Source: a virus
Direction: 5' to 3' (one strand)
IMG/VR virus record: IMGVR_UViG_3300027976_000137
Coordinates: 1-30,438 of that record
DNA: 30,438 nt
Part shown: one piece after another, positions 1 through 30,437 of the stretch
Layout: every line of letters begins with the position of its first letter
Position numbering within the stretch: the stretch's first letter is position 1
The notes under the pieces: model-generated
What the model saw: only the letters and a program-made list of their open reading frames with translations
Database searches by the model: none
Told to the model about the DNA's origin: nothing
Program-made: the position numbers and the translations under genes

Positions 1-485
1 CGTTAACCTGCCTGCTGACCTGCTCGTAGACCTGATCGCTGACCTGCTCGTTAACCTGCCTGCTGACCTCAAAGTTAACCTGCTCGTTGACCTGAGCGCC
101 AACCTGCCTGCTGACCTGATCGCGGACCTGCTCGTAGACCTGCTCGTTGACCTGCTCGTTGACCTGAGCACCGACCTGCCTGCTGACCTGATCGCGGACC
201 TGAGCGCTGACCTGCTCGTTGACCTGAGCGCGGACCTGATCGCGGACCTGAACGTTGACCTGCTCCTCGACCCGATCGCTGACCCGCTCGTGTACCTGAT
301 CGTGGACCTGAGCTTGGAGCTGCGCTTGGAGCTGCTCGCGGACCTGATCGTTGACCTGCTCGCGGATCTGAGCGCCGACCTGATTGAAGACCTGAACGTT
401 GACCTGAGCGTGTACCTGATTGCTGATCAGCTCGCGGACCTGATCGCGGAGCTGAGCGCCGGTCTGATCGTGGACCTGCTTGCCA
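1..485. repeat. Degenerate 12-bp tandem repeat array
   Basis: Units follow the plus-strand pattern (g/a)acctg followed by six variable bases, for example ctcgtt, atcgcg, agcgct or cctgct. Periodicity is exactly 12 bp with no frame break, so on the minus strand it encodes Gln-Val-x-x. Conserved and variable halves alternate, and higher-order blocks such as cctgct next to gacctg recur every few units, suggesting growth by slippage or unequal exchange. The array continues past the left edge, so total length is unknown. Confidence 0.9.
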
Positions 486-721
486 ATCGCCTGAATGCCG
501 GTGTGTGACAGCATATTAGCCGCCATTTGAGCCTCAAACGGAGATTTGACGATAATTACCAATGGCTTTTTAAGCCCACAAAACTCGTATAACCAATGCA
601 CCCCCGATATGACCGCGTCTCGATTAGGTCTTGGGCAATTATTAAGTAAATCTATCCATTCCTTACGAACTGTACACATCAGCTCAACTTGGCTTTCTGT
701 TAACGATTTAAGCTTTTCCAT
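1..721 (-). CDS. DUF6745-like protein with Q-V-x-x tetrapeptide repeats (partial, C-terminus beyond left edge)
   Basis: The minus-strand frame opens with ATG at 721 and stays open for 240 codons to the left edge. Residues 1 to about 85 form a globular head with the pattern LTESQ, VRKEW, a WLYEFCGL stretch and a hydrophobic strand ending in KSP. From memory this matches the N-terminus of DUF6745 proteins, which also continue into Gln-Val repeats. From about residue 90 every four residues read Q-V-x-x, where x-x is mostly EN, DR, AR, ES, RS or EY. At DNA level this is a 12-bp repeat with about 40 units in view. The start overlaps the stop of the 110-aa upstream gene as TAATG, so the two are translationally coupled. 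The function of DUF6745 is unknown to me. The family call is a recognition from memory, not a search. The frame being a real gene is well supported by start, coupling and absence of stops. Confidence 0.75.
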   Translation of the reverse strand, partial: MEKLKSLTESQVELMCTVRKEWIDLLNNCPRPNRDAVISGVHWLYEFCGLKKPLVIIVKSPFEAQMAANMLSHTGIQAIGKQVHDQTGAQLRDQVRELISNQVHAQVNVQVFNQVGAQIREQVNDQVREQLQAQLQAQVHDQVHERVSDRVEEQVNVQVRDQVRAQVNEQVSAQVRDQVSRQVGAQVNEQVNEQVYEQVRDQVSRQVGAQVNEQVNFEVSRQVNEQVSDQVYEQVSRQVN

Positions 722-1053
722 TAGTCCACCACCTTCTTCATTTCGTTTTCAAAATAATCGTATTCGCGCTCATGGGTGATCTCGTAGACACCTGGAACGA
801 TTTTCAAAGTGTGATGCTCCTGATGGCGAAGTTCAGCATCGCCGCCAGATACACGGAATCGATAGACAGCCCCTTTATCATCTAAAATGCTTTCAACAAT
901 TACGCCTGCCGCAACCGGATAGAGCGTATGGTGATGTCCGGTTGCCTCGCCTGCCGCTAAAGTTAGCGGTTGCTTAGCAACGATCCAATTTCCCCCGGCG
1001 TCCTTATTTAAAGACGTCATCATTAAATCGCCATGTCTGTATGTAGTTTTCAT
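721..1053 (-). CDS. Small HGD / GEATGHHH-motif protein, partner of the DUF6745-like gene
   Basis: A 110-aa protein with no signal peptide. An early RHGDL motif (about residues 6-10) is followed by GEATGHHHTLYP (about 35-46), a central strand-rich part, EHHTLKIVPGVYEI (about 79-92) and an acidic HEREYDYFE segment. The histidine cluster and short strands suggest a small beta-sandwich or cupin-like fold that could bind metal, but this is inference. I recall this HGD...GExTGHxH...EHxxIxLxxGxYxVxxQREY layout from small proteins encoded beside DUF6745 genes, so the neighbourhood supports a conserved pair. A purine-rich AAGGAAAGGG site precedes ATG at 1053. Its stop shares a base with the start of the repeat protein. 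Function is unknown. Confidence 0.8.
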   Translation of the reverse strand: MKTTYRHGDLMMTSLNKDAGGNWIVAKQPLTLAAGEATGHHHTLYPVAAGVIVESILDDKGAVYRFRVSGGDAELRHQEHHTLKIVPGVYEITHEREYDYFENEMKKVVD

Positions 1054-1812: not shown

Positions 1813-2745
1813 TTATTTTTGTTTCTCTTCAGCTAACGTCATTGCGTATGCTTCAAAAGCCATGCGGTCGATCTCATCAAAATCGTCGAAATGCTCTTGA
1901 ATGGTCTTCTCATCCTCGAGCATCGCTTGACGGATTGTGAGGCCACGTCTCTGCAACGAGCATTTCGTTTGGATCTTGTGGCTGCCGATTGCTCCCCAGT
2001 TCATGGCTTGAACAGCGGCTTTCATCTCGACGAGCGTCATTGGTTTGGTAAAGGATGCTGGTAGATCGTCGTCGATTACCTCCCCTGTCGTCTCGTCAAC
2101 AGTTGGAAATACGGGCTTTCTAGCTTGCGGTACTTCGCGCACTACTGGCGTTACGTCCCGCATCTCTTCTGAGCTGTAGAGGCCCCCTATTACGTCCGTG
2201 AACATGTTGCGGATGCCCGTCGATACGCATCGAGCGTACAGCATCGGCTTTGGCATTCGCTTCCAGTTGTCCTTGTTGGTGAGCCCTGCCCTCTCCGCTT
2301 CTGCCCACGTGAAAGTGACGTTCTCCTTCCAGTCCCCTCTTGAGATTTCAAGAGTGCAAACTTTTTCGTCCCATTCGACGGTTTTGAACTGACCACCGTG
2401 CTGAATCGCGAGCGCCTTTAATCCCGCAGCTGATAGCGTTGGTTTGCCCTGTATTACGTCGATGGCTTGAAGGGCACGTATAGGGCTGAATCCTAGCTCC
2501 CTGCCATACAGCACTGCGCCCAGGACTTGCTCGGGTGTCTTGTAGTGCTGTGGTGCCATCCCGCTACGAAGTAGGATTGACGCTACTTCGAGCTTTGCCT
2601 TTAGGTTGTCCGCGTAGGACTCGATTGATACCGGCCCGTTTAGTTGTGGTAGTGTGTTCATTATCTTTGGTTCCTCTTTAAATCCGCCTGCTGGCTCGAC
2701 GACTTCGCTATCTTTCCAAGGGTCGTGCGCCCATTTCTCTGCCAT
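1813..2745 (-). CDS. recT: RecT-family single-strand annealing protein
   Basis: A 310-aa protein with the RecT core: ILLRSGMAPQHYKTPEQVLGAV, then GRELGFSPIRALQAIDVIQGKP and LSAAGLKALAIQHGG, followed by a W...A...AGL...DNWKRMPKPMLYARCVS block and an IRNMFTDVIGGLYSSEEM ending. In this family these segments build the beta-hairpin and helices that bind ssDNA and anneal strands during recombination. The C-terminal 100 residues are more variable. I place the start at ATG 2745 (MAEKWAHDP), about 7 bases after GCAGG. An in-frame TTG at 2769 would add eight residues without a better ribosome site. No exonuclease partner is visible. It is the first gene after the promoter at 2787-2815. Confidence 0.88.
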   Translation of the reverse strand: MAEKWAHDPWKDSEVVEPAGGFKEEPKIMNTLPQLNGPVSIESYADNLKAKLEVASILLRSGMAPQHYKTPEQVLGAVLYGRELGFSPIRALQAIDVIQGKPTLSAAGLKALAIQHGGQFKTVEWDEKVCTLEISRGDWKENVTFTWAEAERAGLTNKDNWKRMPKPMLYARCVSTGIRNMFTDVIGGLYSSEEMRDVTPVVREVPQARKPVFPTVDETTGEVIDDDLPASFTKPMTLVEMKAAVQAMNWGAIGSHKIQTKCSLQRRGLTIRQAMLEDEKTIQEHFDDFDEIDRMAFEAYAMTLAEEKQK

Positions 2746-2761
2746 GTTGTGACCTGCTCTC

Positions 2762-2863
2762 GTATACAACAGTTTCTATACAAGTTAGACTACATACTCT
2801 GTCGGATAGGTGCAAGTATTTTTGTATAGAAATCTATTCAGTTCGACAAAAATAGTTGTATAG
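2762..2863. promoter_or_regulatory. Cluster of CTATACAA / TTGTATAG half-sites between divergent genes
   Basis: Four related 8-mers lie in the intergenic region: GTATACAA 2762-2769, CTATACAA 2776-2783, TTGTATAG 2822-2829 and TTGTATAG 2856-2863. The last sits in AATAGTTGTATAG, which matches the right part of the perfect palindrome at 3691-3709 with one change. They flank the recT promoter and lie just before the start of the divergent regulator gene, as operators would. Confidence 0.5.
2787..2815 (-). promoter_or_regulatory. Sigma70-type promoter for the recT operon
   Basis: On the minus strand TTGCAC (2810-2815) is followed after exactly 17 bases by TAGTCT (2787-2792). The motif is repeated with the same spacing at 3688-3716, including ACTTGCA at the -35 and GTAGTCTA at the -10. 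Transcription would begin near 2780, leaving a 5' leader of about 35 bases that contains two CTATACAA-type half-sites. Confidence 0.65.
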
Positions 2864-4109: not shown

Positions 4110-5162
4110 TTATCGAGTGACGCCACATCTCCAAGCTGGGTTGATTTTGCCTATCGCGTTACCGTCGACTCGAACGGTGACGATTGGGTGTCCCTGCAAC
4201 GATCGCGCCTTATCGAGTAATTCAAACCCCCACTCCGCAGCACGGTATATGGACCATCCATTCTGTGGCGAGCCCGGGGCTTTGTACGGTTCCGCGCTAG
4301 GAGATAGGCGAGCTATGACGGTGCCGTTGTCCGTAACTAGATCGACGTTACCATGCTGCGGAATAATCATTACTGGTTTCCCCTCTCTCGGGGACGGTTT
4401 GGTTTTGCTGTGCTGGTCCGCGTGGGTTTTGTAGATCCAGTTGTCGCGCCACTCAATTGCTCCGCGTTCCGCTGCGTAGGGGACGACAGACTTAATATGT
4501 TTTCCAATCGGCCAAGCCAAGCGCCTCGACCTCGGAGTTTCATCGGCACCTTTTGTGCCTTTTGCCTTGTCGGTATATTTGCCGTTGCACATGGAAAACC
4601 AGATTTCGAAAAGTTCCGCACGAAGATGGCGTTGCTTGAATCCCTCCATATCAGCGTCAAAGCATTGTTTGCCGTCGAACGAAAAGCTGTAGGAGCCACT
4701 CGGTGGAGCCATGGTTCCATGCACCTCTCCCATAATCCCATCGATAGCGCCGCCCTTTGCGTAAGAGTTAAGAATAATCAGGCCATCGGCTTTGTCCTTG
4801 AGTCGACCGAATAGATCGATTACCGCTTGGTTACGGTTGTCGCGCTCGCACATTGGCGAGAAGTAGGACGCTACGCTGTGATGCCGGTTTTTGAATTTGC
4901 GAGCTAAATCAAACTCCTTATTGATTATGGGATTATGCTCTTTAGGGTCGTAGGTGTGATCATCTTTCCATACAGCATGAATTTTCAGCGCTGGGAAATC
5001 AGAGCGAGCTCCAAGCTTATTGATTACTCCCCAACAATTTGTCTTGGGCCAAAACGGTTTGTTCGTGTTGAGGATAAACCCTGCGCCCCAGCCAGAGGGA
5101 TGGTTGTTGAGAATAATCTTCGGATAGTTAGCGCCGCCAAGATAGCCAATCGTGAATATCAT
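4110..5162 (-). CDS. Unknown 350-aa protein, possibly a carbohydrate-active (endolysin or depolymerase-like) enzyme
   Basis: The protein has no signal peptide or membrane span. Motifs that look like active-site loops of a TIM-barrel hydrolase occur in order: IHAVWKDDHTYDPKEH (about 60-75), VASYFSPMCERDN (about 97-109), LIILNSYAKGGAIDG (about 128-142), GEVHGT (about 145-150), FSFDGKQCFDADMEGF (about 158-173) and AELFEIWFSMCNGKY (about 182-196). The conserved-looking acids at strand ends and the aromatic WxxxCNG segment suggest glycan binding. I remember similar uncharacterised phage proteins but no assigned activity. Position next to a holin-like gene favours an endolysin or tail-linked glycosidase. 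The start overlaps the stop of the upstream membrane protein (ATGA). Confidence 0.6.
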   Translation of the reverse strand: MIFTIGYLGGANYPKIILNNHPSGWGAGFILNTNKPFWPKTNCWGVINKLGARSDFPALKIHAVWKDDHTYDPKEHNPIINKEFDLARKFKNRHHSVASYFSPMCERDNRNQAVIDLFGRLKDKADGLIILNSYAKGGAIDGIMGEVHGTMAPPSGSYSFSFDGKQCFDADMEGFKQRHLRAELFEIWFSMCNGKYTDKAKGTKGADETPRSRRLAWPIGKHIKSVVPYAAERGAIEWRDNWIYKTHADQHSKTKPSPREGKPVMIIPQHGNVDLVTDNGTVIARLSPSAEPYKAPGSPQNGWSIYRAAEWGFELLDKARSLQGHPIVTVRVDGNAIGKINPAWRCGVTR

Positions 5163-5650
5163 TTTCGATCCTGCTGTTGTTGTTGCGACTCAATACCCAA
5201 CCCATCCCTGCTTACGTTCAGTTTCATATTCCGATCGCTAAAGAGCGGTATCCAATTCGGGATAGCTACCAGCAACGCAAACAGAATCATGATCATCATT
5301 ACGATCGTGTAGGGTATACCTGAGCGATCGGTCGCTTTGGCGAGTAGTCCGCTTTTGATTTCCGCTAAATCTCTAGGGATGCTGCCAAAAGTTTGTAATG
5401 CTCCTTGTGCCACCTTGAAATTTTCATGGATATCGTCGATCTGCCTGTGTGACCTGATCTTGTTAGTGCTGAGAACATTGTAGTGATTCACGAAGCTTTT
5501 GAACTCGTGCCGATGGCCCCTGAGCTCGAGTAATCCTTGTTCGATCAGTCTGATTGCAACGTCACGGTTTCCAGTCGCAGTGTCAGGCGGCTGCATAGTC
5601 AGGTTCACGTCGGCTTGTATAGAGGGGATATCCGTCTCGCTGTCAATCAT
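5159..5650 (-). CDS. Membrane-anchored coiled-coil protein with C-terminal span
   Basis: The start is ATG 5650 (MIDSETD), preceded by AAAGGGAG about 6 bases away. A longer frame to 5719 uses a rare start and runs into the neighbour. The 163-aa product has a polar, charged helical region (about 30-105), one transmembrane span at about 116-135 (YTIVMMIMILFALLVAIPNW) and a polar tail ending in QQQQQ. With the next gene it forms an ATGA pair. The topology recalls small phage membrane proteins in lysis cassettes (i-spanin-like but with reversed order), so any lysis role is speculative. Confidence 0.7.
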   Translation of the reverse strand: MIDSETDIPSIQADVNLTMQPPDTATGNRDVAIRLIEQGLLELRGHRHEFKSFVNHYNVLSTNKIRSHRQIDDIHENFKVAQGALQTFGSIPRDLAEIKSGLLAKATDRSGIPYTIVMMIMILFALLVAIPNWIPLFSDRNMKLNVSRDGLGIESQQQQQDRK

Positions 5651-10751: not shown

Positions 10752-12343
10752 CTTGATCCTGTCTCCCCAGAATTATACCAGACGTTATAGGAGTAAAGAT
10801 CCAATCCTACCGTCTTGGCCGCTACCGTAGTTCCTGACATTTTAACTTGCACGAAAGTAATATTTTGCATTCCAACATTAGCGGCTGGTTTTGCTACGCT
10901 CGTAGTAGCGGCGTCTGTTTTCTGGTCTACGCTGGTCTGGCGTCCGAAATCAGCCACAAAATTGTAACTAGTTTGCGCGTAAAGGTCGGACTCTAGAATT
11001 GGCTCGATTTGCGTAGTTTCGTACACGGCTGTTTTGGGGAAAGGAATTGGGGCTGAAAGCATCTCATAGTCGTAGCCGACATCTGCAGTGTCATCGACGT
11101 TACGATCCATAAAGCCGGTAGACCCTTCCTTTTTGTAGATCATGATACTTCTGCTATTCGCAGTAACATCACGAGAGATAAGTAATACCTTCCTGTTAAA
11201 AATAACCGCTTGTGCGAGTATGTGATTCAAGGCATCGACACCATGCGACCTATGCACCGACCAGGATTTTAGAAGTGTATCGAATACAAAGTACGAAGCA
11301 CCGGTTTGAACAGCGCCCTCAGAATCCAGGTATGCCGGGAATGGAATTATTATCCGATGATTTTTGTTGTCCCATACGCCGCTTATCAGAGCGAGATCGG
11401 TGCCCGCTAGTATCGGGGGCCGATTTTCCACCATATAGATCCATCTACGTTGAATATTAGCATTCACGCTTAGATCTATCGCCTGCTCTGACCCGTCGAG
11501 GAAGAGATCTCGCAAAGAGACAACACCGCTATCACAAAGAATGAGCGTGTCCCCCTGGTATTTAATATACGCGCTTGGGCCAAGTGGCCTGCCGATCTTT
11601 GCTTGGCCTGCGAGCGCCCATGATGCCGAGTCCGGATAGCTCCCAGAATAAAAAAGCACCTCCCCCGAAGCACATACAAACGCGAGATAGCTGCGATTCT
11701 CGGCGTTATTTGAAACCGTTATTGGGGATATGATGTAAATTTGGGTCTTCTCTTCGACTATCGAGGACAGGTCTACCGTTGTGACCGCGCCCGATATCGC
11801 ATCGATTCCGCCGTAGTGATAAACCGCCCCGTCTGTTGACGCGAGTCCGAACTGGATTAGGTAGATTCTGTGATTGAATGACCCAGCTCCCCTAATGCCA
11901 GCCGTGCCCGGAAAGCCTGTAAAACCCGCAAGGGACCACGTTGCGCCGTCGTACACAAATCCAGGGGCGTAGTTTAATTCAGTGAAAAAATATAAGTGTT
12001 GGTTGAACACAAAGGGGAACATATTGGCATCGCCTAGCGACGCTGCCGAGGTGAACGCGACAGTTGAAAGATCCGTGGCATCGTAAATCTGCATTTTGCT
12101 AATGGTGCTGTTGTATATCGCAGCAAAGATCTCACCACCCAACACACCCAACGCCTTTGGGCTTTTTGTGTTAGCTGCAAAGGTGGTAACTGCATACTTA
12201 GAATCGCCATGCCGTAACGATATACCCGCTTGCGTGACATTGAAGTTGAGTAAATTCTCGCAAAAAGGATTCTGAAGCGCGGCGGTGGGTGTCTTGTCGT
12301 CCACTCCCGCATAGGGTGCTGGTAGATTCGCGGAGTTGGTCAC
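10748..12343 (-). CDS. Tail nozzle / beta-propeller-like protein (gp12- or P22 gp10-like)
   Basis: A 531-aa, strand-rich protein with repeated blocks of hydrophobic strands ending in aromatic turns (for example QHLYFFTELNYAPGFVYDG, NHRIYLIQFG, SYLAFVCASGEVLFYSGSYPDS, DTLILCDSGVVSLRD). It begins with an N-terminal LPAPYAGVDDKTPTAALQN arm. This fits the beta-propeller 'tail tubular B / DNA stabilisation' family that plugs the podophage neck, and the next upstream large gene but one is an adaptor, as in those phages. The GTG start overlaps the upstream TAG as TAGTG, with GAGG just before it. Fold assignment is from pattern and position. Confidence 0.75.
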   Translation of the reverse strand: MTNSANLPAPYAGVDDKTPTAALQNPFCENLLNFNVTQAGISLRHGDSKYAVTTFAANTKSPKALGVLGGEIFAAIYNSTISKMQIYDATDLSTVAFTSAASLGDANMFPFVFNQHLYFFTELNYAPGFVYDGATWSLAGFTGFPGTAGIRGAGSFNHRIYLIQFGLASTDGAVYHYGGIDAISGAVTTVDLSSIVEEKTQIYIISPITVSNNAENRSYLAFVCASGEVLFYSGSYPDSASWALAGQAKIGRPLGPSAYIKYQGDTLILCDSGVVSLRDLFLDGSEQAIDLSVNANIQRRWIYMVENRPPILAGTDLALISGVWDNKNHRIIIPFPAYLDSEGAVQTGASYFVFDTLLKSWSVHRSHGVDALNHILAQAVIFNRKVLLISRDVTANSRSIMIYKKEGSTGFMDRNVDDTADVGYDYEMLSAPIPFPKTAVYETTQIEPILESDLYAQTSYNFVADFGRQTSVDQKTDAATTSVAKPAANVGMQNITFVQVKMSGTTVAAKTVGLDLYSYNVWYNSGETGSR

Positions 12344-14226
12344 TAGCGCCTCATCCCAGGTAGATAGACACCTGGAGAGCTAGTCCTAGATCGTGGGGGT
12401 ATATTCGCGCCTTGTGCTGCTGCCTGCGCAGGTGTTAGTGGCACTGCTGGCGTCCGAGGCACTCCGGTAACTGGAGCTGTCGATTGAGCACCAACCTCAA
12501 ACCCTTTCATCACGTTGTCGAAGTTAACTTTGGCTTTCTCATCGTCCGATATCTGGACTTCACCTTTGTGTGAATCGTAGAGATTTGAATCGATGTTTGC
12601 TTGAGTTACCGCCCGCCGTTGCTCTTCTGATAGCGATGCCCACTGCGGTCCGTAGACCCTGATATTTCCGTACACATGGGTAAGGTTCCCGGCATCGAGT
12701 CCACCAGACTTGTAATCGTCCCAGGTTCGATACTTATTGCCTTTAGTGTCACTGAATGGATGCTCTGGATCGGGAGGGGCCTCTTGGTGCTGAGCTCGAA
12801 CGGTCTGCACGTATCCTTGGTATGTTGGGTCTTCGGTGCCAAATTGCAATAGCTGCCCGGTGTGCTCTTTCTGAACGCCGCGAGTCGATTGATGGAATAT
12901 CTTTTTGTGAACTGCCTTACCGATGCCAAAATCAATTTTGTCGTTAAAGTTATTACTGCTTTTCATCCACGAATTGATTCCCTTCGTGGCCTTACCGCCA
13001 GAAACCGCATCAACTGCACCAAGAGCGGCATATGCTGCCCAGCCATAGGGCCCTAGAAACGGTAGTACCGCCTTAACTCCGTCTGTCTGGGATGCTGCAG
13101 CTCGATCATCAGTATTGCCCTCCGTGTTCATTACGTTCTGACCGACCTGCGCTGCTGCAACTCCAGCCCCTACAAACGGAGCGGCTTGGCTCAAACCTGT
13201 CGCAGAACCGCCATTAGCTAAGACACTTGCTCCTGCCGCTGCGTTGAACGCGCCTCCGACGATATTGGCACCGCCCGCAAGCTTCTGTCCGTCTTGGTAT
13301 TGCTTGTACCCCGAATAGGCTTGAGCTGCTCCGCCCGCTATCTGTAGTCCGGAAACGATAGGGCTCTGAGTAGCTGGGATAAACTGGCCATCGGGTTGAA
13401 CTATAGCCCCGTCATTTCCGACTATCGCGCCGTCAGACATTAAATGGCCCGGGGAGCCATCGGGCATCGCCGCGCTTCCAACTTCGGTTACTGGTGTTAC
13501 GCCTACCAATTGTGGGGCTGCAGGAGCTCCGGTGGTCGGAGTAGCTGGGATAAACTGGCCATCGGGTTGAACTATAGCCCCGTCATTTCCGACTATCGCG
13601 CCGTCAGACATTAAATGGCCCGGGGAGCCATCAGGCATCGCCGCGCTTCCAACTTCGGTTACTGGTGTTACGCCTACCAATTGTGGGGCTGCAGGAGCTC
13701 CGGTGGTCGGAGGAGCTGTGGCACCCTGCGCCGCTGCTTGAGATGGCGTGGTAGGAGCTGCAGCGCCCGACGTCCCACGAGCGGGAACTGCCGGTGCTAT
13801 AGTTTGACCGGTTGCACTTATCTGACTACCGTCCGACATAAATCTAATGCCGGATTTTACATCGACGTGCACAACGGTCGGGGGAGGGCTGCCCACTCCG
13901 GCCTTCATGGCTTCGTTAGCAAGTAGGATACCGCCTGTTCCGGCAATTACTGGCGTAACCTGACCCATCGGGCTATTAGCCTGCGCCTGCTGCTTTCTCT
14001 GTGCCTCTACCGCGTCTTTTTCGTCTTGGTGTTCTGAAATTGCAGCTGATGGGTTGGCTCTGAAAACTTTGCGCCCCGACGCATTGGAAGCTACCGGATC
14101 GTAAACATATCCAGGATATCCAGGAACCACGTACCAGGTTTGACCGCCAGGCGTTGTGACTTTCTCCCAGCTTTGGAATTTGCTGTAGTCAGTGCCAGGA
14201 AAAGGATCATTCTTTACTATCGCCAC
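12343..14226 (-). CDS. Large Ala/Gly/Pro-rich tail or neck-associated protein with a 57-residue tandem duplication
   Basis: I place the start at GTG 14226. It overlaps the upstream TAG as TAGTG and has AGGGGG 6 bases before it, giving 627 aa (M-AIVKNDPFPGTD). The track-length form starting at TTG 14274 lacks a good ribosome site. After a WYVVPGYPGYVYDP segment comes a low-complexity region with two tandem copies of a 57-aa unit containing SDGAIVGNDGAIVQPDG. Next is a hydrophobic Gly/Ala stretch (IAGGAAQAYSGYKQYQ...), then a soluble C-terminal region with HVYGNIRVYGPQWASL. AAAQGA recurs near both the repeat region and the C-terminus. Between adaptor and nozzle genes, a virion role is likely, but I know no family. 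Confidence 0.7.
   Translation of the reverse strand: MAIVKNDPFPGTDYSKFQSWEKVTTPGGQTWYVVPGYPGYVYDPVASNASGRKVFRANPSAAISEHQDEKDAVEAQRKQQAQANSPMGQVTPVIAGTGGILLANEAMKAGVGSPPPTVVHVDVKSGIRFMSDGSQISATGQTIAPAVPARGTSGAAAPTTPSQAAAQGATAPPTTGAPAAPQLVGVTPVTEVGSAAMPDGSPGHLMSDGAIVGNDGAIVQPDGQFIPATPTTGAPAAPQLVGVTPVTEVGSAAMPDGSPGHLMSDGAIVGNDGAIVQPDGQFIPATQSPIVSGLQIAGGAAQAYSGYKQYQDGQKLAGGANIVGGAFNAAAGASVLANGGSATGLSQAAPFVGAGVAAAQVGQNVMNTEGNTDDRAAASQTDGVKAVLPFLGPYGWAAYAALGAVDAVSGGKATKGINSWMKSSNNFNDKIDFGIGKAVHKKIFHQSTRGVQKEHTGQLLQFGTEDPTYQGYVQTVRAQHQEAPPDPEHPFSDTKGNKYRTWDDYKSGGLDAGNLTHVYGNIRVYGPQWASLSEEQRRAVTQANIDSNLYDSHKGEVQISDDEKAKVNFDNVMKGFEVGAQSTAPVTGVPRTPAVPLTPAQAAAQGANIPPRSRTSSPGVYLPGMRR
13371..13712. repeat. 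171-bp near-perfect tandem duplication
   Basis: The unit at 13371-13541 repeats at 13542-13712. I count a single clear mismatch inside the unit (cgggcatc versus caggcatc) plus slight decay at the far end. The period is 57 codons, so the frame is kept. It encodes the SDG/PDG-rich repeats of the 627-aa protein. Confidence 0.9.
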
Positions 14227-15083
14227 TATACGCCCCCTGTACCTGGCCATGAACCCACGGGAGTATTTGGCCAATCAATCGATCCGTTTATGTCGTACGC
14301 TGCGCTCACTACCGTGGCCCCATTCTGTCGGCCTAGTGCCGATCGGACCGAACTGCGCCACTTCGCATCGTAGGTTTGAGCAGACTGAAATTGTTGCTTC
14401 GCCTCGTACCAGGCCCAGCGCAACCCTTCGATAAACAACTCATCGTCTAGGATTACGAAATCAGTGTCAGCAGTGACGGGATACGGCTCGAAGTACGGTA
14501 CCCATTCGGCTGTTCCGTCCGATATGGTTCCTGATGATCCGGTCAATCGAGCACTACCTGATGTTCCGGACGTTACGCAGTAGTAAATATTGTTAATGCC
14601 AGATCGGATATTGCCTAGAACGTAAGCAGTAGCGGGAGCCCAGTTTTGAGGCCAAACGTAATTCCTGGACACATACGCGATGGCGTATTGCGTGGTGTTA
14701 TCCTGACCCGCTGGTGAAATCTGAAAATAACCTGCTGATTTTTGCAGGTAGGTATATGCACCAGTTGAGAATGTATACCCCTGAGCGCCGTTAATCTGAT
14801 ACCCAGCGTACGGACTGGATATATTAACCCCGTAGGTTTGGAACGCGAGTTGTGCGTTGGACAGTGGACCAGCTAAAGGAATCTGATTTGTCACACCCCA
14901 CTGAGTGCCCGTGAGCATTCTCAGGAAATCGCCAGGGAGTTGGTAGTTTGCAACTCCCAACGATGTGGTGAACGTGTAAATTCTCTTGAGCTGGTCCCAG
15001 CCGTCTTGATACTCGAGTAGCTTGCCAGCAACGTACTTAAATAGGGATAGATACTGCCGAGCGGCAGGCGTGGTAGAGCCCAC
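14226..15083 (-). CDS. Head-tail adaptor / tail tubular A-like protein
   Basis: GTG at 15083 gives 285 aa. The helical start (ARQYLSLFKYVAGKLLEYQDGWDQLKRIYTFTTSLGVANYQLPGDFLRML) matches the podophage adaptor layout: two helices, a W, an 'F.T..G...Y.LP.D..R' strand and loop. It continues into a beta-rich middle (YAIAYVSRNYVWP, AYVLGNIRSGINNIYYCV) and a helical end (ELFIEGLRWAWYEAKQQFQSAQTYDAKW). The frame stays open upstream to 15161 and adds ATVAELINEFLDRINQP, which looks like a genuine first helix, so the true N-terminus probably lies near 15152 despite lacking a standard start codon. Role: joins the portal to the nozzle. Confidence 0.75.
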   Translation of the reverse strand: MGSTTPAARQYLSLFKYVAGKLLEYQDGWDQLKRIYTFTTSLGVANYQLPGDFLRMLTGTQWGVTNQIPLAGPLSNAQLAFQTYGVNISSPYAGYQINGAQGYTFSTGAYTYLQKSAGYFQISPAGQDNTTQYAIAYVSRNYVWPQNWAPATAYVLGNIRSGINNIYYCVTSGTSGSARLTGSSGTISDGTAEWVPYFEPYPVTADTDFVILDDELFIEGLRWAWYEAKQQFQSAQTYDAKWRSSVRSALGRQNGATVVSAAYDINGSIDWPNTPVGSWPGTGGV

Positions 15084-30350: not shown

Positions 30351-30437
30351 TTAGCACGGGACTAAACACATCTTAGGCGTAGGCGTAGGCGTTTTGGTCG
30401 GTGTCGCTGTTTTGGTTGGCGTAGCTGTCTTTGTCGG
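30351..30437 (-). CDS. C-terminal end of a Pro/Thr-rich repeat protein (partial)
   Basis: The minus-strand frame is open from the right edge and ends with TAA at 30351-30353. It reads P-T-K-T-A-T-P-T-K-T-A-T-P-T-K-T-P-T-P-T-P-K followed by MCLVPC. P-T-x-T repeats of this kind are common linkers in exported or surface proteins. Start, size and function are off-window. A second frame (Asp/Asn/Tyr-rich, ending in AYAYA) is also open over this short stretch, so the frame is not certain. Confidence 0.45.
   Translation of the reverse strand, partial: PTKTATPTKTATPTKTPTPTPKMCLVPC

Follow-up and report, generated by a model that had tools for sequence, protein, structure and literature searches.

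Contingency loci carry coding repeats of variable number, and their copy number varies between near-identical genomes. In diversity-generating retroelements, variation is focused on a few codons, whereby a reverse transcriptase (RT) and a template repeat are located nearby. For the Borg elements, coding, in-frame and rapidly evolving amino-acid tandem repeats have been reported within a mobile element; their units are described as perfectly repeated, without single-nucleotide polymorphisms, and as spread genome-wide (PMC9879509). Here, we analyzed a stretch of 30,438 nucleotides from a virus (IMG/VR record IMGVR_UViG_3300027976_000137, positions 1 to 30,438; the whole stretch is called the window in the following), which at its left end carries the first part of a putative DUF6745-type gene with a long array of tetrapeptide units. 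As in contingency loci, the copy number of the phage array varies, probably by slippage or recombination, but the array additionally exchanges unit order and composition, and its diversity is concentrated on two residues. With the Borg repeats it has in common that it is coding, in-frame and fast-evolving in a mobile element; however, the phage units differ at two replacement bases, and the array is confined to one site of one family. The outcome is also similar to that of diversity-generating retroelements, in that variation of a phage protein is focused on a few codons. A literature search on DUF6745, QLWDQL and phage tetrapeptide repeats yielded nothing.

The open reading frame (ORF) in question runs from position 721 to position 2 on the minus strand, with 240 amino acids visible, and is open at the window edge. 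Its parts are as follows.

Positions 2 to 721, minus strand: 5' part of the DUF6745-type gene with N-terminal domain and tetrapeptide array (ORF; N-terminus profile, E 2e-13; relatives with PF20530 after the array).
Positions 479 to 721, minus strand: conserved N-terminal domain, residues 1-81 (LTxxQ...RxEW...P.R......YE..GL..P......SP), to which the profile of 49 N-termini aligns from residue 1 to 73.
Positions 2 to 478, minus strand: tetrapeptide array of 40 in-phase units of the Q-V-x-x type, open at the contig edge (repeat analysis; per-base diversity).

Residues 1-81 are globular and without repeats, whereas residues 82-240 form 40 consecutive four-residue units in a single unbroken phase, the last unit being cut. 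The Q/V-type framework is matched by 38 of the 40 units, in agreement with a first-pass annotation made from the sequence alone, which had described an N-terminus followed by at least 38 Gln-Val-x-x units running off the window. The repeat is not an exact one, as two of the four codons vary per unit. At the DNA level, Tandem Repeats Finder detects arrays of period 12 at 6-447 and 113-478. The 40 units are a lower bound because the array continues past the contig edge; a second, near-identical contig, which differs from the window by 6 mismatches in 5,721 bp, extends the array to at least 51 units and likewise stops within it. A plus-strand frame at 2-508 (VDLLADL...) is open as well, but it is merely the antisense of the array and was set aside. 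Overall, this anatomy of the gene, with N-terminal domain, array and, as in the relatives, a DUF6745 core, is well supported and almost certainly correct.

A Pfam search revealed no DUF6745 above the cut-off in the visible 240 amino acids of the window ORF, nor in residues 1-78, because the PF20530 model comprises the core alone, which follows the array. Thus, the Pfam search of residues 1-90 that had been suggested at first finds no match, and this is not counted against membership, since PF20530 starts beyond the array. A profile was considered that comprises 49 phage N-termini, all of them from phage ORFs with a detected DUF6745 core. In the six-frame translations of the window, the window ORF was its sole match (E 2e-13), and there were no matches in 2,000 shuffles, so the ORF is not a chance frame. 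The Mycobacterium abscessus prophage prophiGD102-1 encodes a protein, gp38, with a similar N-terminus, 46 QLxx units and then Pfam DUF6745 at residues 291-475 (E 6e-29). This prophage is listed in a study of M. abscessus prophages, in which a text search shows no mention of tandem repeats (PMC8092301). In full-length phage relatives, the order is N-terminus, array and DUF6745 core. Based on these relatives, which carry PF20530, and on the N-terminus profile, the window protein is assigned to the DUF6745 type, as had been proposed for a phage-borne protein, whereby the core itself would lie beyond the contig edge. PADLOC, the scope of which does not include counter-defence proteins, gave weak matches to the repeat alone (best E 3e-4). 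The weak repeat matches from Pfam and PADLOC together (YpjP, DUF445, PDC-S29 and others) appear to reflect composition and were disregarded.

In order to describe how widespread such arrays are, we used a search with the core only, which has no bias to repeats and gave 80 viral and 80 chromosomal loci, and added the loci from earlier scans that favoured repeats. A clear period-4 array is present at the same site in 90 of 101 viral loci with a DUF6745 core and, after removal of duplicates and at a slightly lower threshold, in 84 of 90. The phage copy is thus no oddity, as it had appeared to be from the window. In contrast, only one of the 80 chromosomal loci passes the array threshold; these are the best-scoring 80 of 498 and all belong to Actinomycetota, so this figure is uninformative on other phyla. 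The chromosomal members share the two-gene arrangement described below with the phage relatives of the window gene, but mostly lack the array that the latter carry together with the same N-terminus. The family is present in 6 of 198 Actinomycetota genomes. Among the phage arrays, which comprise 6-63 units (median 30), the framework pairs are QL (31), SV (22), QV (12), AV (7), AT (6) and rarer others. On a tree of the core, in which the chromosomal loci, all from Actinomycetota, form a single clade, the labels (framework types and array-less groups) need at least 31 changes. Since framework labels switch repeatedly on this tree, period 4 is kept while the framework residues are replaced. Two AV-type arrays of 72 and 58 units (L173 and L160), the former being the longest seen, are cut by the contig start. 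A short QV-type unit run (NEQVNEQ...) also occurs inside a phage protein that is not of the DUF6745 family (L004, 4665-5780).

The arrays are hypervariable in length, order and composition despite near-identical flanks. Three M. abscessus prophage alleles, in which the 249 bp preceding the array show 0 differences and the 642 bp following it 0-1, have 46, 62 and 19 units. For both the 46-unit and the 19-unit array, the stretch of units in common with a fourth, partial array is longer than shuffles give; for the 62-unit array, the order in common with the others does not exceed the level of shuffles. In one independent pair (L136/L138), the cores are 99.84% identical and the arrays differ; in another (L188/L189), the cores are 100% identical and the arrays have 40 and 6 units. 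The first-pass annotation had expected the repeat number to vary among close relatives, which it does, and had suggested a length-tunable function. Length does vary, but it is not the only variable, as unit order and composition change too.

To locate the variation within the unit, nucleotide diversity (pi) was determined for each base of the 12-bp unit in 81 arrays. Because units were picked by their framework residues, bases 1-5 are constrained, and the silent reference is best taken from base 6, in third position of the Val/Leu/Thr codon. Mean pi is 0.032 at this base, whereas base 7, which opens the third codon, reaches 0.61 and base 11, in the middle of the fourth codon, 0.42; base 7 exceeds base 6 in 81 of 81 arrays (Wilcoxon p 5e-15). 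For Arg at x1, the first of the two variable positions, 40 arrays use CGN exclusively, 30 use AGR exclusively and 3 use both. Furthermore, in 23 of 61 arrays the two variable bases of a unit show detectable linkage. Diversity on amino-acid-changing bases, a single Arg codon family and linkage fit reshuffling of inherited unit types together with selection on the protein better than fresh mutation in each unit. It is likely that selection at the protein level keeps the two positions diverse. The use of nearly always one Arg codon family per array fits unit shuffling, unlike the template mutagenesis of diversity-generating retroelements. In a neighbour survey of the viral-locus flanks, which involved no RT-profile scan and had no region left of the window at its disposal, there was no conserved RT cluster. 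An RT-driven mechanism is unsupported, given this survey and the Arg codon usage.

Upstream of the DUF6745-type gene, the window carries a small gene that was found here to accompany the DUF6745 family, followed by a gene that we regard as context only.

Positions 721 to 1053, minus strand: partner gene of 110 amino acids, upstream of the DUF6745-type gene and predicted to be translationally coupled to it (match to PHROG 27831, which has no function; AlphaFold2 model).
Positions 1813 to 2769, minus strand: RecT-like single-strand annealing protein, upstream and in the same direction, outside the module (PHROG 561, E 3e-26).

The ATG of the window ORF overlaps the stop codon of the partner gene (TAATG), an arrangement as in a translationally coupled operon. 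Of the 62 viral DUF6745 loci whose upstream sequence is long enough, 61 have the partner, on either side; among the chromosomal loci it is present in 79 of 80. Its motifs are GD, GE..GHxH, HxEH and a C-terminal D, whereby GD, H42, HxxH and the C-terminal D are invariant, as are the second His of GHxH and the histidines of HxEH. No Pfam or NCBIfam family was matched, though the family is well conserved. AlphaFold2 predicts an all-beta fold with a mean predicted local distance difference test score (pLDDT) of 88.9. Apart from the partner, the flanks of the viral loci contain no conserved neighbour, and RecT-type neighbours occur in some relatives only. The related prophage prophiGD57-2 has different small hypothetical genes at the corresponding place, and when the phage collection was searched with the gp38 protein, this prophage was not among the matches listed; from this comparison, the two-gene module looks accessory. 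Elsewhere in the window, a 171-bp tandem duplication (98% matches) is located at 13368-13718 within an ORF of 643 amino acids (12343-14274).

We lean, with modest confidence, towards an explanation in which a two-gene phage module would consist of a small all-beta partner and, encoded by its second gene, a DUF6745 protein with a shuffled array as variable interaction surface; of this second gene, the first half lies in the window. Arrays would be rebuilt by slippage and unequal recombination, which reshuffle a small inherited set of unit variants, while protein-level selection would keep two unit positions diverse. The array might then act as a putative multivalent, fast-changing interaction surface displayed by the core of DUF6745 protein and partner. 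It could be used early in infection against a variable target, such as a host defence or a competing phage, or serve as a self/non-self mark. The part in host interaction or anti-defence that had been suggested in the first-pass annotation is conceivable. That the array is such a surface is a tentative proposal, which we nevertheless prefer over its main rivals, a tolerated minisatellite and a spacer.

Several observations weigh against this proposal. In the window array, pi at the silent site is 0.30, above most arrays, while the x1 bases have 0.67 and 0.55 and the x2 bases 0.30, 0.60 and 0.51, so the contrast is weaker there (0.67 versus 0.30). The replacement excess is measured between units of one array, which are non-independent, and codon preference could keep silent bases constant. 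When a QV-type relative available in full length (L176) was modelled with AlphaFold2, N-terminal domain and core came out well, but the array appears as long helices of low confidence (pLDDT mostly 46-71); over all arrays, Gly accounts for 30% of the residues at x1 and 17% at x2. Neither model had a Foldseek match at E <= 0.001, and in profile searches neither the DUF6745 core nor the partner matched a PDB sequence. The best VIA-align 2 result for the partner, an NAD kinase with Z 3.9 over 68 residues, is too low to be considered. By these sequence and fold searches, core and partner are without a relative of known function.

The array could instead be a coding minisatellite tolerated in a linker, which changes by slippage and unequal crossing-over and is unselected in content beyond frame and solubility. 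The wide length range, the frame kept by a period of 12 and the segments common to related arrays would agree with this. Neutral turnover, however, predicts silent variation at least equal to replacement, and the opposite is seen in every one of the 81 arrays; moreover, independent lineages retain the period and a similar x1/x2 alphabet. We therefore regard a minisatellite as unlikely. Slightly less probable still is a spacer, ruler or scaffold, that is, a rod or filament whose length matters and whose residue differences are incidental. It would account for the strict period 4 over differing frameworks and for the long helices proposed by AlphaFold2, and the array-less chromosomal homologues do have a different, non-repeated stretch at the array site. 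On the other hand, length is unconserved even with identical flanks (19, 46, 62 units), and variation on two residues is left unexplained. The regular-ribbon filament imagined in the first-pass annotation gains little from the models, as the helix is of low confidence and is disfavoured for the units of many relatives because these are Gly-rich.

A DNA-level element, for instance a recombination hot spot, a partition repeat or a protein-binding repeat that is translated incidentally, is very improbable. The 12-bp period is near-perfect and some of the phages have recombination genes nearby, but framework codons and consensus silent bases differ by lineage, while the protein period is constant. 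In addition, the unit occurs in short stand-alone genes. In one locus (L003), an array-less DUF6745 gene precedes a series of short ORFs (4986-5454) that are built of QVxx units and have start codons of their own, along with a ribosome-binding-like AAAGGAGG. Series of short stand-alone tetrapeptide-unit genes are found in L029 (3061-3975), L030 (3578-4067) and L032 (1-572); the loci L029-L032 contain several short QLxx genes in succession. Such genes consist almost purely of tetrapeptide units with short unique ends and keep start codons, which argues for a protein product and a protein-level role of the unit.

That the arrays are collapsed or chimeric assembly products is hardly credible, since, even though assemblers do fail here (the contig start cuts 34 of 84 arrays) and unit numbers from short reads can be wrong, 53 arrays lie in mid-contig with both ends inside an ORF, one of them from a prophage deposited as a complete record, and arrays differ in order beyond number. 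For a stretch of a few hundred bases, 34 of 84 exceeds the random expectation; the left end of the window is one such cut. The right contig end holds a short imperfect repeat of period 18 (30382-30437), so both contig ends lie in repeats. One contig (IMGVR_UViG_3300044703_000050; loci L024 and L027) carries the rear half of such a gene at one end and the front half at the other, as expected if a circular molecule had been opened inside the array. Because arrays break assemblies, phage contigs may be terminated wrongly, or taken for incomplete, at the DUF6745 gene.

In about 90 phage loci, a protein region thus evolves more rapidly than the sequence on either side of it and, by the searches above, neither the DUF6745 core nor the partner resembles a protein of known function or fold. 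It is a doubtful but conceivable extension that this constitutes a new kind of RT-free diversification system, a two-gene module whose tetrapeptide array, drawn from a small alphabet of units and rebuilt again and again by recombination, would give each phage a combinatorial recognition surface against host defences or competing phages. Should the array indeed serve as a recognition surface, a four-residue unit would underlie a hypervariable phage system, and the read-out would simply be which array occurs with which host or defence.
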